From: a virus | IMG/VR virus record: IMGVR_UViG_3300030099_000988 | Coordinates: 1-37,546 of that record | Length of the DNA: 37,546 bases | Direction: 5' to 3' (one strand) | Part shown: one piece after another, positions 78 to 37,546 of the stretch | Layout: each line of letters begins with the position of its first letter | Position numbering within the stretch: the first letter of the stretch is position 1 | The notes under the pieces: model-generated | Told to the model about the DNA's origin: nothing | Databases searched by the model: none | What the model saw: only the letters and a program-made list of their open reading frames with translations | Program-made: the position numbers and the translations under genes

Positions 78-233
78 GGGAACGGATCCCGGATCCGCTG
101 GGATCGGGGCTGCTGGACCTATGGCGGGGTGCCGTGCCAGCGGCTGTGACAGCAACGAGCGTTTAAAGCAACAAGCGTTTACAAGTAGGGGGCCATGGGG
201 GGTATCGTCGCGGCCTGCTGTAGTATAAGCCTG
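1..233. other. Non-coding end region with palindromes and a 16-bp tandem repeat
   Basis: I see no credible gene here. A perfect 12-bp palindrome (TTCCCCGGGGAA, 71-82) abuts an inverted repeat CGGATCC-C-GGATCCG (83-97). A tandem repeat follows at 151-165 and 167-181 (AGCAACGAGCGTTTA and AGCAACAAGCGTTTA, one mismatch, period 16). In the circular map this stretch continues into 36449-37546, and together they lie between the last late gene and the first early gene, where T7-like phages keep the concatemer junction. Confidence 0.7.
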
Positions 234-530
234 TCAGATTTTTTCACCAAAATAATTCTGGGGGTTAGGATCACAGCTATCGAGGTCACATAGGGCAACA
301 ACAGCAGTGATACATGCTCTAGGAATCGCGTTGACATTACCAAAGCAATCGTCTTTTTCATCAACGCTCTTTGTAGAGGCAACTGTGATGTAATCTTCGT
401 TATGTACCAAAAGATACCCAACGGTTGTCATTGATGCTGGCTTCATATCCATGGCCTCATCTTTGGTCATCCAAGCATCATTGTCTGGATGACCAACAGT
501 ATCGGTCCATGTGACAGCAACCAACTTCAT
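234..530 (-). CDS. Conserved small phage protein of unknown function (last late gene)
   Basis: This 98-residue soluble protein begins MKLVAVTWTD. A central stretch resembles a small family common in marine phages, with TVGYLLVHNEDYITVAS followed by GNVNAIPRACI; this is recognition from memory. No catalytic motif is evident. The start is fixed by translational coupling: its ATG overlaps the TAA of the upstream 56-residue gene in a TAATG arrangement. It is the last gene transcribed before the non-coding end region. Its function is unknown. Confidence 0.8.
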   Translation of the reverse strand: MKLVAVTWTDTVGHPDNDAWMTKDEAMDMKPASMTTVGYLLVHNEDYITVASTKSVDEKDDCFGNVNAIPRACITAVVALCDLDSCDPNPQNYFGEKI

Positions 531-6744: not shown

Positions 6745-9700
6745 TTATTTCTGCCTTTCGGGAAGGTTGGCTTGTTCAATTAGTGCTTTACTCAACTCGT
6801 TGATGAAAATGGTATTCCTCATAGGGATGAGCCTCAAGATCGCCCGAAGCTCTGGTTCAGTGAGTTCATTGCCTACACGTCCTCCTGACACGGCGTTGAG
6901 CGCAGCCGCGATCAGTTCTTTGCTGGACCTATATCCTCCCGTAATCAGTGCCCCACCGGGCGTGTTATCAAAACTGAACAGGTTCACACCATACCCAGAT
7001 GTCCTGTAGGTATTGAATATGTCTTCTTCTTCAGGATCAATTATCTGGGATATAGGGCTTGCGACGGCTGGAATGATTCCGGACATACCGGATCTAATTA
7101 CACCGGCAATCATAAGTTTGGGAACCTCTATGCCAATGAACTCCTTTGACCCATATGCCTCTTCTTTATATTCCCTGAGTTCCTTGCCACTGAACTTAGT
7201 CGCACCAATCTCGGTAGTGATTATGTATCCAAGAGTTCCCAATAGGGCTGTTGACAGGAAAGTTGCTCCAGCCTTGCCATCCATCATCTGGAGGTTGTAC
7301 ACCAACTGCTTGTTGGTGGCGTTGATGGCAAACTTCCTGAACTGTAGAAAGACATTAGCCATTGGATGAGACATCCACGGGCTCAAGTTGCCGATCTTGT
7401 TGCGTTGAATGACACGATCAAGATCTCGTCGTAGAGCGAATACCAGCTTGTTTCTCAGACCATCATCCATTGCAGACAGGTTGAGCTTGACAATGTTCTT
7501 TCCCAGCAACCCCTTCGTGATAGGAGTTACATTGGGATCCGCCAGTGCTTCGAGAATGGTGTCGGTTTCTTCGTCAGTAAACCCGAGATATTCAAATCTC
7601 TTTCTGGACTTAGACCAGAAGTTATTGGTAACCCTCTTTCCGTCCTTGACCCGATACGCCATGTTCACCCAGTTTTGCAGGGTTGCCATGACATGACCAT
7701 TTCTCAGTAGCTCATCCATCGGTCCAATACCGAATGGGTTCAGAGTCAAGCCGCGTCCCGCCACACTTACTGGGGCTCCCGAAGCTACAGTCCGGGCACC
7801 TTTCATGAAGGCTTTGCCTGTTCTTCTTATCCCCGATCCAACATCTCCAAGTCCAGATTCTTCAAAACCCACATCTTCGTGGACCCTGTAGGACCTAGTA
7901 AATCCTTCATCGAGCATGTCTCCCGCTCTCACAAAGGAATCAATCTCTTCAAGGACTTCATCACTGAGTTGGCCGTTCGCTGCCTGTCTGACTAGCTTCC
8001 GCAGTCTAGGCACAGATTGAAGCGTCGCTCGGAGACCGTTAGAGATAGTGGAGTTGGCAAGCTCGGGCAACTGAGCAACCCCTACGTTGCCCATGGATTG
8101 GATGAACGCATAATCCTGAAGGAATCTGAGTGCCCTTCTGCTCTTGTCACTCAAGTTACCTTGGGACAATCCCATGATGGCGTTGTATGCCACCTCGAAC
8201 CCTGCTTTCATCTCATCACTGAGACCGCCTTCACCCTTTTCCATCCATGCAATCATGTCCTGCCGGGTAGGAACCGTGGCTCCTGTGCCCTGAACATCAA
8301 TATCAAGAGCCTTTGCCATCTTTGTGAGTTCTGCTGAACCCAGCACACGGGTGGCGTACTGCTCCATCAAGAGGGTCATGTCGTTATCAAGTAGATCAGA
8401 GAACTTCAGGACACCCTTACCGGCTACCTCAATAGCTGTTGCCTCGTTGAAGTTGATCCTTTTATTAGTCATCCCCAGATGGGGGTCGTTTGACTTGGGG
8501 ATGAAGAAGTCCAATATCTCTTCAACTTCATCCTTAGTGATTTTGGACCTATTGAGTACCCTTCTCATAGCATCCAGTTTCTGCTGGCTGTTCTTCCCAG
8601 TAACACGGGCATTGACATACCCATTAGGATCCTGAGAGTACTTGAACCAACCGTTGACAACAGCAGACACTTTCTTATCAGCCATGTCGGGGTTGTTAGC
8701 TCTGAGAGCGTTAGTCAGTAGTCTCCTGACCTCAACTTCACCGAACTTTTCAATGGCTTCATTGACCTTTCGGGCAACAGCACGTCGTGGGACATAGTTG
8801 TTGTCCACAAAGTTTCTGAATCCTGCAATACCAGACTCTTCAGCAAAGGTCGCAAGTCCTCCAAAGAACTCACGCACGGCTTGAACAGCCTTTCCTTCCA
8901 GCCCATCCAGCTTCTTTCCTGTCCTAACGGCCTCAGCTACATTCGCATCAAAGTCCTTGAGAGCTTTCCTGCCGTTACGTCTTTCAATAGCCAGCCGCGC
9001 CTTCTGGTAGTTCCCCATTGCTGTTTGGCGGTTTGCATACACAACAGTCTCAATATCAATTCTTGGACTGCCGGTCGGGTCTTCAACAAGTATGGAGAAG
9101 AAGTCTCTCACTCGCTCGTTCTCTGACCTCCGAGCCATGACTGCCAGTGGCTTCAACTTGGGACCAGAGTTGATGAACTTTGAGTAGATGCTTTCCTTGG
9201 GTATTTCCTTACTCAACTCTTTGGCATAGTCCTCAACAGAAAACCTCATCAACTTGAGTTGGTCCTTGAGTTCATCGCTGGACTCATTGATGGCTGTGAT
9301 CATTGCCGCAACCGATTGGTTATCAATCTCAAAGTCATCTCGCCGAGCGGCAATAAGTTCTTCCCTAAGTTCTTTAACTGATCGAGGAACTTTCTTGGGA
9401 GTTTTGAAATTACCCCCGGTGTATTCCATAGTATTGATTGGGTTCCGTCTGGACCTCATTACTTGATCACTGGGGTCGAACAGGATCAGAACATTGTGCT
9501 TCTTTTTGCCCACAATCTTACCGCCAATGTGGGTGTATCCTTCATAACCAAGGCCCCTGAGCTTTTCGATCATGTCGCCTACAGCGTCACCTACTTCGTC
9601 CATCAATACGTCACTTGGAACTTCTGAGGTGAAAGCCCTATAGGCATCAGAAATTGTGGCATCCTTGTTCTTTCTGAGTGAATTTAGGGTGTCTTCAAAG

Positions 9701-11037
9701 TCTTCCATATCGAGACTCTTGGTCACAGAGAACTCGTTTTCATGGAGGGCGTCAATAAACAACCTTCCTTCATCAGAGCTAAGAGGCTGCTCAAGATCTA
9801 ATAGTTTTTGAGTGTTGAGGTTCAATTCGTAAACCGTTGGCGTTCCACTCTTCTTTCCCCGACTTTTAGCGTAACCCTTGGCCACATCTATATCATCGGT
9901 CAGATACAACCCTGAACCAAACAGACCATCAATTCTGGTCATAAATGGATCGATAGTTTCTTTGGAAAGATTAAGAGTCCCCGTTCCGTGATAGTAAATC
10001 TTTTTGTTTACATCCACAACGGCGGGTTGGTATTTGAACTTTCCTGCTGAAGGAGTGACTAATCGAGAGGTTTCAATCCCTCTAGCCTTAGCTTCAGCGA
10101 ATAGATCCTTCTTTGAAAGACCGTTTATATACCTCGTAGTGCCCTCTTCACTCAGGAAAGGCCCCATAGTTCCGGGGCCTATACGAGCTTCTAGGGCCAT
10201 CAGTTCTCTAACGATCTCCCCAGTTTCCTTGCCTTCAGTATCCAGCCCTCTTCGTTGGGCAGTTTCTTTTATGTTTGCGGCATTCTCGGGGGTAATTGCT
10301 GCCAGCATTTCATCCAAGTTTGCCTTTTCAACATCAGCGGCAATCCTCATGCGCTCAAGTTCAACTTGCTTTTTCCACCCGCTCTTGAATCCAGCCATGG
10401 TGGGGAAGGCCGCAGAAAGTCCGGTTCCCAGTCCCATAGAGGCTAGGGTGTTGATGACAAAATCTTCACCATCAGTCAGAGGGTCCATTACCAATCTGAC
10501 ACCTTCTAGGGGGACATCTACAGCCGCAGATATGCCCAGACCCCTCAAAGCTGCTTGGGCTCTGACGGTCCTTGTGGCTGTGACACCAGTAGCAACTGCT
10601 TTTGACCCAATCGCCAGCCCCGCTACAGGAGCGGCAACCAAGAAAGCAGGGTCCAACATGGCGACCCCAAACTGGTATGCCATACCTGTGAGGCCCATGT
10701 CAGCCAGCTTTTGTTGGGTCTTAAGTCGGTCTCTTATGGTCCGGTAGCGATACAGAAACTCTTCTTCACTCTCAGAGTCGGCCAGTTTTTCAACAAGGTT
10801 GGCGGGCAGGTTTCTCCCATACTTTTCAAGAAAATTAGGACTGATCTTGAAGTTAGGATCTCTCTTGCTTGGTCGATAGAAGTAATCAACTATACGGGAT
10901 GCAATAGTCACATCCTCAAACACATCCATGAATGAGGGGGTGCCGAGATCTTCTTTCTCAGGAGTAGCCTCGCTGATCATTCTCGGTGTTGGGGTAGGGC
11001 CAACAGGAAGATCAAGATAGCTAGGTATCTGCGTCAT
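6745..11037 (-). CDS. Internal virion protein D (T7 gp16-like) with embedded ADP-ribosyltransferase-like domain
   Basis: This is the largest protein (1,430 residues). Its place after the gp15-like gene and its size match T7 gp16 (1,318), the ejected core protein that forms part of the cell-envelope channel. T7 gp16 starts with a lytic transglycosylase domain; I see no such motif here. A hydrophobic stretch lies near residues 119-155, and another near the C-terminus contains TALLGTLGYIITTEIG. Residues ~345-530 look like an ADP-ribosyltransferase fold: YYHGTGTL (His350), FGSGLYLTDDIDVAKGYA (Tyr378), VYELNLNTQKLLDL, LGYEGYTH and NVLILFDPSDQV. The third catalytic position is not clear. The ATG overlaps the upstream stop (ATGA). 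Confidence 0.9.
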   Translation of the reverse strand: MTQIPSYLDLPVGPTPTPRMISEATPEKEDLGTPSFMDVFEDVTIASRIVDYFYRPSKRDPNFKISPNFLEKYGRNLPANLVEKLADSESEEEFLYRYRTIRDRLKTQQKLADMGLTGMAYQFGVAMLDPAFLVAAPVAGLAIGSKAVATGVTATRTVRAQAALRGLGISAAVDVPLEGVRLVMDPLTDGEDFVINTLASMGLGTGLSAAFPTMAGFKSGWKKQVELERMRIAADVEKANLDEMLAAITPENAANIKETAQRRGLDTEGKETGEIVRELMALEARIGPGTMGPFLSEEGTTRYINGLSKKDLFAEAKARGIETSRLVTPSAGKFKYQPAVVDVNKKIYYHGTGTLNLSKETIDPFMTRIDGLFGSGLYLTDDIDVAKGYAKSRGKKSGTPTVYELNLNTQKLLDLEQPLSSDEGRLFIDALHENEFSVTKSLDMEDFEDTLNSLRKNKDATISDAYRAFTSEVPSDVLMDEVGDAVGDMIEKLRGLGYEGYTHIGGKIVGKKKHNVLILFDPSDQVMRSRRNPINTMEYTGGNFKTPKKVPRSVKELREELIAARRDDFEIDNQSVAAMITAINESSDELKDQLKLMRFSVEDYAKELSKEIPKESIYSKFINSGPKLKPLAVMARRSENERVRDFFSILVEDPTGSPRIDIETVVYANRQTAMGNYQKARLAIERRNGRKALKDFDANVAEAVRTGKKLDGLEGKAVQAVREFFGGLATFAEESGIAGFRNFVDNNYVPRRAVARKVNEAIEKFGEVEVRRLLTNALRANNPDMADKKVSAVVNGWFKYSQDPNGYVNARVTGKNSQQKLDAMRRVLNRSKITKDEVEEILDFFIPKSNDPHLGMTNKRINFNEATAIEVAGKGVLKFSDLLDNDMTLLMEQYATRVLGSAELTKMAKALDIDVQGTGATVPTRQDMIAWMEKGEGGLSDEMKAGFEVAYNAIMGLSQGNLSDKSRRALRFLQDYAFIQSMGNVGVAQLPELANSTISNGLRATLQSVPRLRKLVRQAANGQLSDEVLEEIDSFVRAGDMLDEGFTRSYRVHEDVGFEESGLGDVGSGIRRTGKAFMKGARTVASGAPVSVAGRGLTLNPFGIGPMDELLRNGHVMATLQNWVNMAYRVKDGKRVTNNFWSKSRKRFEYLGFTDEETDTILEALADPNVTPITKGLLGKNIVKLNLSAMDDGLRNKLVFALRRDLDRVIQRNKIGNLSPWMSHPMANVFLQFRKFAINATNKQLVYNLQMMDGKAGATFLSTALLGTLGYIITTEIGATKFSGKELREYKEEAYGSKEFIGIEVPKLMIAGVIRSGMSGIIPAVASPISQIIDPEEEDIFNTYRTSGYGVNLFSFDNTPGGALITGGYRSSKELIAAALNAVSGGRVGNELTEPELRAILRLIPMRNTIFINELSKALIEQANLPERQK

Positions 11038-30808: not shown

Positions 30809-30862
30809 CGGAGGGAACTAGGGGATTAGCAATCCGCTGCATTACCGCTCTGCCATCCCTCC
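30809..30862 (-). other. T-arm-less tRNA-Ser(GCU)-like element, candidate attP core
   Basis: Read on the minus strand, it has a 7-bp acceptor stem (GGAGGGA with TCCCTCC) and a Ser-type discriminator G. A D-arm region (TGGCAGAGCGGTAATGC) follows, then an anticodon arm GCGGA-TTGCTAA-TCCCC with anticodon GCT at 30828-30830. Only TAGT then separates it from the 3' acceptor strand, so the variable arm and T arm are missing and it cannot be a normal tRNA. The acceptor repeat extends to 9 bp (30808-30816 with 30856-30864). The anticodon stem-loop GGATTGCTAATCC is a classic integrase crossover sequence. Confidence 0.7.
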
Positions 30863-36064: not shown

Positions 36065-36088
36065 CCGAATAGGGGACGGATTGACGGA

Positions 36089-36448
36089 TTACTTGACGGA
36101 CATAATGGCCTTGCCCGCAGCCTTCACGTTCGCCATTTTGCCCTTCCGGACATGGGCAGTCCCGCCCTTGATGCCACAACCCGAGACGATGGCCTCCCAT
36201 GCGTCGATTCCGTTTACCGAGATCCTACCCTCCCCAGTATCAAGGGCGGTACGGGTGCCGGGATTCGTCTCCCCATATTCTCGAAGAGCCCCAAGGGCCA
36301 CCCGGGCCTTCCGGAGACAATCGTGGTCCCCGTCCCCAATGAGCATATCAATACACAATGAAGCCTTATACGCCTTGACGGCATCACGGGCGCTGGCAAT
36401 GTACTTAGCAAGGTCGGTGGAAGTAGCGGTAGCAATAGCAGTAGTCAT
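36089..36448 (-). CDS. First early gene, hypothetical protein (119 aa)
   Basis: MTTAIATATSTDLAKYIASA opens a helical N-terminal half, followed by GDGDHDCLRKARVALGALRE and a Gly/Lys-rich end (CGIKGGTAHVRKGKMANVKA). No family is recognised. The leader is ATGAAGGGACCAGACTGC, which is weaker than in other early genes. The gene is bracketed by two terminators upstream and one downstream, so it forms an isolated unit, the first reached by transcription entering from the right. Confidence 0.75.
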   Translation of the reverse strand: MTTAIATATSTDLAKYIASARDAVKAYKASLCIDMLIGDGDHDCLRKARVALGALREYGETNPGTRTALDTGEGRISVNGIDAWEAIVSGCGIKGGTAHVRKGKMANVKAAGKAIMSVK

Positions 36449-36477: not shown

Positions 36478-36501
36478 AAAAAACCCCCCACGTTGGAGGG
36501 T
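36478..36501 (-). terminator. Second of two tandem terminators before the first gene
   Basis: ACCCCCC and GGAGGGT (36483-36489 and 36495-36501) give a 7-bp stem with a 5-nt loop, followed on the minus strand by TTTTTTATTT. It lies about 30 bases before the first gene start. Confidence 0.85.
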
Positions 36502-36502
36502 G

Positions 36503-36534
36503 AAAACCGGCCACCCTCGTTAGAGGATGGCCGG
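36503..36534 (-). terminator. First of two tandem terminators before the first gene
   Basis: CCGGCCACCCTC (36507-36518) pairs with GAGGATGGCCGG (36523-36534) over 12 bp with one wobble and a 4-nt loop; TTTT follows on the minus strand. With the next hairpin it forms a tandem block that would stop late transcripts on concatemers, or a leader RNA. Confidence 0.85.
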
Positions 36535-36539
36535 CTGTT

Positions 36540-37140
36540 GAGTCTCCCCGCGTTCCATTAACGGGGGTTGATAACTCTGTGTGATTGTCCAGCTCCTGCC
36601 CTTTCATTGCCCCCCGCGCACGGCGTAAGGTTTTTATCGGCGGATACGATTGTCCGGGGCCCGCGTGCTACGGCGGGATAGCGGCTCGATTCCTGCTGGC
36701 CCCTGCATCGGTCGGCGTTCTACACGGGCTCCGGCGGCCCCCATGGCGGGGCGGCGTGGCGCGTGGACTGGAATCTACTCCCGTACCCTCTGGGATACGG
36801 GTCAGCCTACTGGACTCATTCACCCCTGCGGCGCGGCTGCACTATTGACAACCGCAGGGGAGATGGTGGGATTCGCACCCCCGGCACCCGTCGCACGTTT
36901 ATCCGGTGCCCTTCCCCGCCGTTGTTCAGCCGGGGAAGGGCACCCCCCGCGATACCGGCTCATGCGGGCATCGGGGGGCGTGGTGGTGGTGCCGGTTGCC
37001 GGAGCCCATAGTGCAGGATCCGGCAGGTGGCGGTATTCGGTTGCCAAAGAGAACGACGGAATGAACCTACACACAACATCGGCAACATGCAAGGGCATTA
37101 TGAGCAGTATTCGACAGAATAAACCATGAACAGGCAACAA
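36540..37140. other. GC-rich, strongly folded non-coding block (possible structured RNA)
   Basis: No credible gene lies in these ~600 bases, but perfect or near-perfect hairpins are dense: 36780-36801 (9-bp stem, one bulge), 36823-36860 (9 bp), 36905-36944 (14 bp, 12-nt loop) and 36943-36978. A compact three-way-junction candidate at 36656-36703 has a T-loop-like arm (CTCGATT loop). GGCACC at 36883-36888 could also pair with 36905-36910, competing with the 14-bp stem. The base composition is richer in G and C than that of the coding region. The strand is uncertain; minus is favoured because tandem terminators follow. Confidence 0.45.
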
Positions 37141-37469: not shown

Positions 37470-37546
37470 TAAACGCCCCACCAGAACCATGTTCGGGTTC
37501 TGTTAGGGCGACAACGTGTTCGGTGAATGTTAGGGTGTGTTCCCCG
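37470..37546. repeat. 77-bp terminal direct repeat, right copy
   Basis: Identical to positions 1-77. See the left copy for interpretation. Confidence 0.95.

Follow-up and report, generated by a model that had tools for sequence, protein, structure and literature searches.

A structured RNA of about 570 nt lies beside the first early gene of a T7-like phage genome. Seven other contigs, all from related, uncultured T7-like phages (L085, L086, L006, L010, L099, L167 and L175), carry homologues of this RNA at the corresponding position. The genome, termed the window below, is the whole 37,546-base virus record IMGVR_UViG_3300030099_000988. Conservation of the secondary structure on the minus strand is well supported. 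We propose tentatively, at slightly less than even confidence, that this is a stand-alone early phage RNA that is probably partnered with the neighbouring protein and whose variable half contacts a host target.

The minus strand of the window carries a T7-like gene set that includes a single-subunit RNA polymerase, a primase-helicase, a DNA polymerase, a head-tail adaptor, a tail fibre and a terminase, the last of the T7 kind by PHROG and isolate matches. The closest isolates are remote, with no more than 34% identity in the RNA polymerase and about 62% in the terminase, and relatives among the isolate matches listed include Pelagibacter and Roseobacter phages. No DNA match to the window or to L086 was found in the phage isolate collection, and the single match of L099 there was judged to be due to chance. 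Positions 1-77 and 37470-37546 of the window form an exact 77-base repeat, as expected from an assembler closing a circle, and the true terminal repeat is probably near it. A motif, GAAAAAATCTGACAGGCTTATACTAC, is present in a single copy at 220-245 (minus strand) and in a close version in eight related contigs, and sits after the right-end gene in the contigs inspected. It is perhaps a right-end phage promoter or terminus signal; its use as the source of a phage promoter consensus was dropped because it occurs only once in the window. In the related contig L011, repeated near-identical units of a hairpin plus a start lie between early genes at 6800-9720.

An earlier note had described a large GC-rich block without a gene at 36540-37140 of the window. 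This description holds, since GC content reaches 0.68 and no frame is kept among the homologues. The block was also said to end at tandem terminators. These are present on the minus strand (36536-36503 and 36501-36478), but the extent of the element has to be corrected to about 37050-36478. We placed its 5′ end (approximately 37050) by a conserved CTTTGRCAA motif and its 3′ end by a U run. The two final hairpins with their U runs come about 30 bases before a small gene at 36448-36089. The features of the locus are as follows.

36478-37050, minus strand: structured RNA, whole; defined by homology to seven other loci, with no ORF kept
37033-37048, minus strand: conserved 5′ motif, TTTGGCAACCGAATAC in the window; seen in the sequence
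36998-37024, minus strand: 5′ hairpin GCCGGAUCC / GGCUCCGGC; arm pairing only, string-matched, positions by eye
36905-36944, minus strand: GGTGCCCTTCCCCG/CGGGGAAGGGCACC, a perfect 14-bp hairpin particular to this phage; relatives have a gap or another sequence here
36823-36860, minus strand: central-domain helix 1, 11 pairs; 4 pairs changed on both sides
36766-36807, minus strand: central-domain helices 2 and 3, GGCUG..CAGUC around a 9-bp stem; both sides changed in 6 of its 9 pairs
36723-36765, minus strand: central-domain helices 4 and 5; both sides changed in 3 of 4 and 3 of 6 pairs
36585-36690, minus strand: conserved 3′ domain; models R1 and R3 (see below) plus covariation
36541-36577, minus strand: hairpin, then ACUCAA; its loop, UUAAUGGAACG, is shared with L167, L086 and L006
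36503-36536, minus strand: terminator 1, 14-bp stem and U run
36478-36501, minus strand: terminator 2, stem then UUUUUU
36089-36448, minus strand: small gene; its 119-aa early protein belongs to a fast-evolving family whose members adjoin the RNA in all eight loci

Strong hairpins and GGCACC/GGTGCC arms, both remarked on earlier, are indeed present in the block, although the 14-bp hairpin at 36905-36944 is absent or different in relatives. What is conserved is a series of separate stems (36860-36823, 36807-36766 and 36765-36723) and a branched 3′ domain (36690-36585). The latter consists of a branched stem with a UAGCAA-like loop, an internal loop (GAUAAA/UGAAAGG) and a hairpin with a CRUGC loop. 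Toward the 5′ end, the terminal motif is TTTGACAAGTRAATA-like in L085, L086 and L010 and diverged in L099 and L175, and changes in one arm of the 5′ hairpin are matched by the other arm in L085 and L086, whereas the window version contains a single U-C mismatch.

Folding of a 671-nt stretch is better than that of 20 of 20 shuffled sequences on both strands (z -3.8 and -3.7), and thus fold energy alone cannot tell the strand. The 5′/central part of the window RNA taken by itself gives a z of -5.3. Two more stretches on the minus strand of the window have strongly negative fold z values, at about 34306-34127 (-6.6) and 32146-31967 (-5.9). Promoter-like sites are no commoner than in shuffles. Terminator-like sites in the early region of the window number 7 against 4.5 expected, not a notable excess, and for this reason a general idea of antitermination was dropped.

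Homologues were reached by several routes. Searches with the protein of the small gene led to L085 and L086, whose upstream noncoding regions align to the block (blastn E values of 2e-61 and 4e-57, gene included) with 71% and 68% identity to the window over the RNA part. L006, L010 and L099 were reached by terminase and polymerase searches, and L167 and L175 by a search with the right-end gene. The 3′ part is common to L006 and L099, L167 matches the window in the 3′ part of the RNA, and L010 and L175 share 69% DNA identity over the whole RNA.

A covariance model of the 3′ domain (R1; 36690-36585) built from the window, L085 and L086 recovers two sequences already suspected from their position, L006 (E 8.2e-5) and L099 (E 0.0095), and no other non-training match at E<=10 in 23 sources (382 kb); in 98 other sources (888 kb) it finds nothing at E<=5. 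A second model of this domain (R3), built from these five sequences, finds the previously unsuspected L167 (E 8.2e-14) and L175 (E 3.2e-4), and only these two, in 29 sources. With default filters R3 has no match in a set of 27 sources, L010 included. With filters off, L010 scores 7.2 bits (E 1.6), which is both the best place in that contig and the expected one; L010 is counted as a homologue through its identity to L175. Turning the filters off also gave weak R1 and R3 matches at other places in L006, L099 and L010, which were judged to be chance. A model of the central domain (R2; three training sequences) finds on the sense strand only its own three sequences, its opposite-strand matches in L085 and L086 being caused by a palindromic stem, and in 13 further sources it gives no credible match and two weak, unrelated ones. 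Neither the RNA nor the neighbour protein was found in L011, L021, L033, L036 (one contig with L100), L037, L040, L062 or L067, all of which have the terminase and polymerase.

Compensatory changes support a conserved RNA fold. In an alignment of seven of the eight homologues (A14, without L010), 93.3% of 164 cells are paired and both sides have changed in 19 of 25 pairs (45 cells), as compared with at most 43.4% paired and 6 pairs in slid controls. An alignment of five sequences (A8), which lacks the later-found L167 and L175, has 95.6% of 114 cells paired and changes on both sides in 15 of 25 pairs; alignment to the model biases both A8 and A14 towards it. For three of the eight homologues (A9), the values are 96.3% of 108 cells and 16 of 36 pairs. 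None of 500 shuffles reaches the observed value in A8, A9 or A14, with the proviso that the shuffles ignore relatedness. An alignment that includes L167 (A12) misaligns the 5′ part and was left uncounted, and MAFFT aligned the 3′ tails poorly, so that these alignments were kept out of the counts. G-U cells exceed A-C cells by 18 to 3 in A14 and by 6 to 3 in A9, which establishes the minus-strand RNA as the conserved form.

The covariation also bears on whether the block might be protein-coding or a chance GC-rich structure. ORFs of up to 87 aa are present on the other strand, and L085/L086 mismatches have a mild periodicity (17/22/34), both of which speak for coding. However, frame matches occur in both directions and in all phases, with stops and with gaps of 1, 2 and 7. 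Together with the covariation, this leaves almost no credence for a coding or chance origin. The earlier note had suggested a large structured noncoding RNA, and had named lack of covariation and a conserved protein frame in relatives among the results that would speak against it. Neither occurred, since covariation is strong and the relatives keep no frame, and the suggestion is supported.

Conservation is distributed unevenly along the RNA. The 3′ part aligns well in five of five pairs tested (z 17 to 47), and the 5′/central part is kept in the pairs window/L085, L085/L086 and L010/L175 (z 13 to 72). In the two remaining pairs the 5′/central part is unrecognisable: for the window and L167 it gives a z of 0.2 versus 31.0 for the 3′ part, and for L006 and L099 the corresponding values are 1.2 and 16.9. 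The flanks of the window and L167 are nevertheless 87-93% alike at 4223-1, 35831-35416, 35240-34788, 34494-34234 and 33797-32271, and 68-78% alike in other blocks. The 5′ part of L167 folds somewhat better than its shuffles (z -2.1; 2 of 100 as good). As judged from these alignments, the RNA keeps one half of its fold and appears to change the other rapidly.

The small gene takes part in this replacement. Between well-conserved flanks, a distant homologue replaces the small gene together with the 5′ part of the RNA (window 36079-36448 versus L167 11396-11770). The gene and the RNA 5′ part thus look to be a diversity hotspot. The neighbour proteins of the eight loci (109-136 aa, on either side of the RNA) form one family by transitive matches (L167-L010, 2.9e-7; L167-L086, about 1e-4; L099-L175, 9.3e-13; L103 is reached from both L006 and L099), and the direct links that join other groups are weaker. 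A profile of the eight finds one more member among 20,046 ORFs, in L103, a contig that begins inside the gene. The window protein has no Pfam match above the cut-off, PHROG matches only at E 0.02 or worse, and no tblastn match in phage isolates. Its AlphaFold model is helical with two strands (pLDDT 74, pTM 0.70), and a fold search with this model gave no match at E<=0.001 in PDB or BFVD.

The arrangement of gene and RNA is informative about a cis-acting role, in which the RNA, as a leader or antiterminator, would govern whether transcription passes the tandem terminators and enters the early genes. The RNA stands at the head of the early genes, and the small gene is 3′ of it in five of the eight loci, directly following with the terminators between. 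In the other three (L099, L010 and L175), however, the small gene is 5′ of the RNA, which precedes a different gene; the element is also much longer than would be expected of a leader, and its end is formed by strong hairpins followed by U runs. Its discrete terminators, its length and its indifference to the following gene favour a free-standing RNA, and we regard the leader as distinctly unlikely.

At gathering thresholds, Rfam 15 matches nothing in the block or in L085, L086, L006, L099 and L010; at E<=10, the block yields only a sub-threshold anti-hemB (terminator-like) match and chance matches. ARAGORN finds no tRNA gene in the window or the eight loci, and neither it nor Rfam recognises a tRNA or tmRNA inside the block. 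A T-arm-like sequence near 36870 was considered as a tRNA 3′ end, and ARAGORN calls no tRNA there. The only tRNA model match, a weak one of 33.6 bits that ARAGORN does not call, is far off at 30809-30862 (minus strand), just upstream of the RNA polymerase gene. In a search of literature listings covering a minority of subscription papers and, of bioRxiv preprints, those within PMC, we found no description of an RNA of this kind in this phage group.

OLE RNA has a partner protein encoded beside it and is not known from phages. It resembles the present RNA as a large structured RNA of the same ornate group (PMC12286853), and differs in that Rfam gives no match in the block or in five relatives. 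The earlier note had pointed to GOLLD and ROOL as examples of large phage RNAs. By the Rfam models the RNA is neither: the GOLLD model (RF02032) matches none of six records at E<=10, and the ROOL model (RF03087) likewise matches none of six, a weaker blank given that its control was also without signal. According to PMC12286853, GOLLD is a large phage RNA whose 3′ region is constant, whose 5′ region varies and whose palindromic loops covary, and the sign relied on there for OLE and GOLLD is change that preserves the palindrome; ROOL is phage-borne, highly structured and of similar length (a 659-nt example). Many GOLLD RNAs exceed 800 nt, against about 570 nt here. GOLLD is often near tRNA genes, unlike this RNA; there is likewise no tRNA island as for ROOL, and, in a further difference from ROOL, the 5′ part is not conserved together with the 3′ part.

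Copies of the RNA could still join by kissing loops into a closed particle in the manner of GOLLD or ROOL, with the protein merely a neighbour. Similar size and the GOLLD-like conservation pattern (PMC12286853) speak for such an RNA-only assembly. So does the apical loop of the 3′ domain, whose first four letters self-pair in eight of eight sequences: six have CAUG, L006 has UAUA, and the window has CGUG, which relies on G-U pairs. However, the loop is mostly identical, just two sequences deviating from CAUG, and self-pairing is a property of 36 of the 256 tetramers. Given also the lack of ARAGORN tRNAs and of GOLLD or ROOL model matches, we consider RNA-only assembly rather unlikely.

The position near the terminal region and the self-complementary loop would also suit a packaging RNA or a terminal DNA element. 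The analogue is phi29 pRNA, a structured RNA near the genome end that joins through loops and is much shorter than the RNA here. Unlike in phi29, the terminase is of the T7 kind, and some related terminase contigs lack the RNA: there is no model match in L011, despite an 81% identical terminase, or in L021, L033, L036, L037, L040, L062 and L067 (63-69% identical). The G-U excess speaks against a DNA-level hairpin. A role in packaging is therefore very unlikely.

The reading we prefer is thus a free-standing early RNA. Host polymerase would transcribe it early from a promoter just upstream and stop at the tandem terminators. The constant 3′ domain may serve as a scaffold, either for binding of the neighbouring protein or for pairing with another copy of the RNA, and the variable part would contact a host target involved in defence or take-over and diversify in an arms race. 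That one half is constant and the other variable, and that a protein accompanies the RNA, suggests a scaffold whose other half faces a target, within an early locus directed at the host. We infer this function from sequence comparison; the adjacency of RNA and protein could instead reflect a shared variable early locus. A more specific version, which we find clearly doubtful, is a two-part ribonucleoprotein with a 3′ scaffold that self-associates through its palindromic loop, a fast-evolving partner and a 5′ domain swappable against host defences. If true, this would be a modular RNA counter-defence system.

Few large ornate RNAs are known, and the roles of GOLLD, ROOL and OLE are still poorly understood. 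The present RNA adds a strongly covarying family in T7-like phages, whose genomes are small and genetically simple. Its constant/variable split and the adjacent protein provide direct handles on what such RNAs do.
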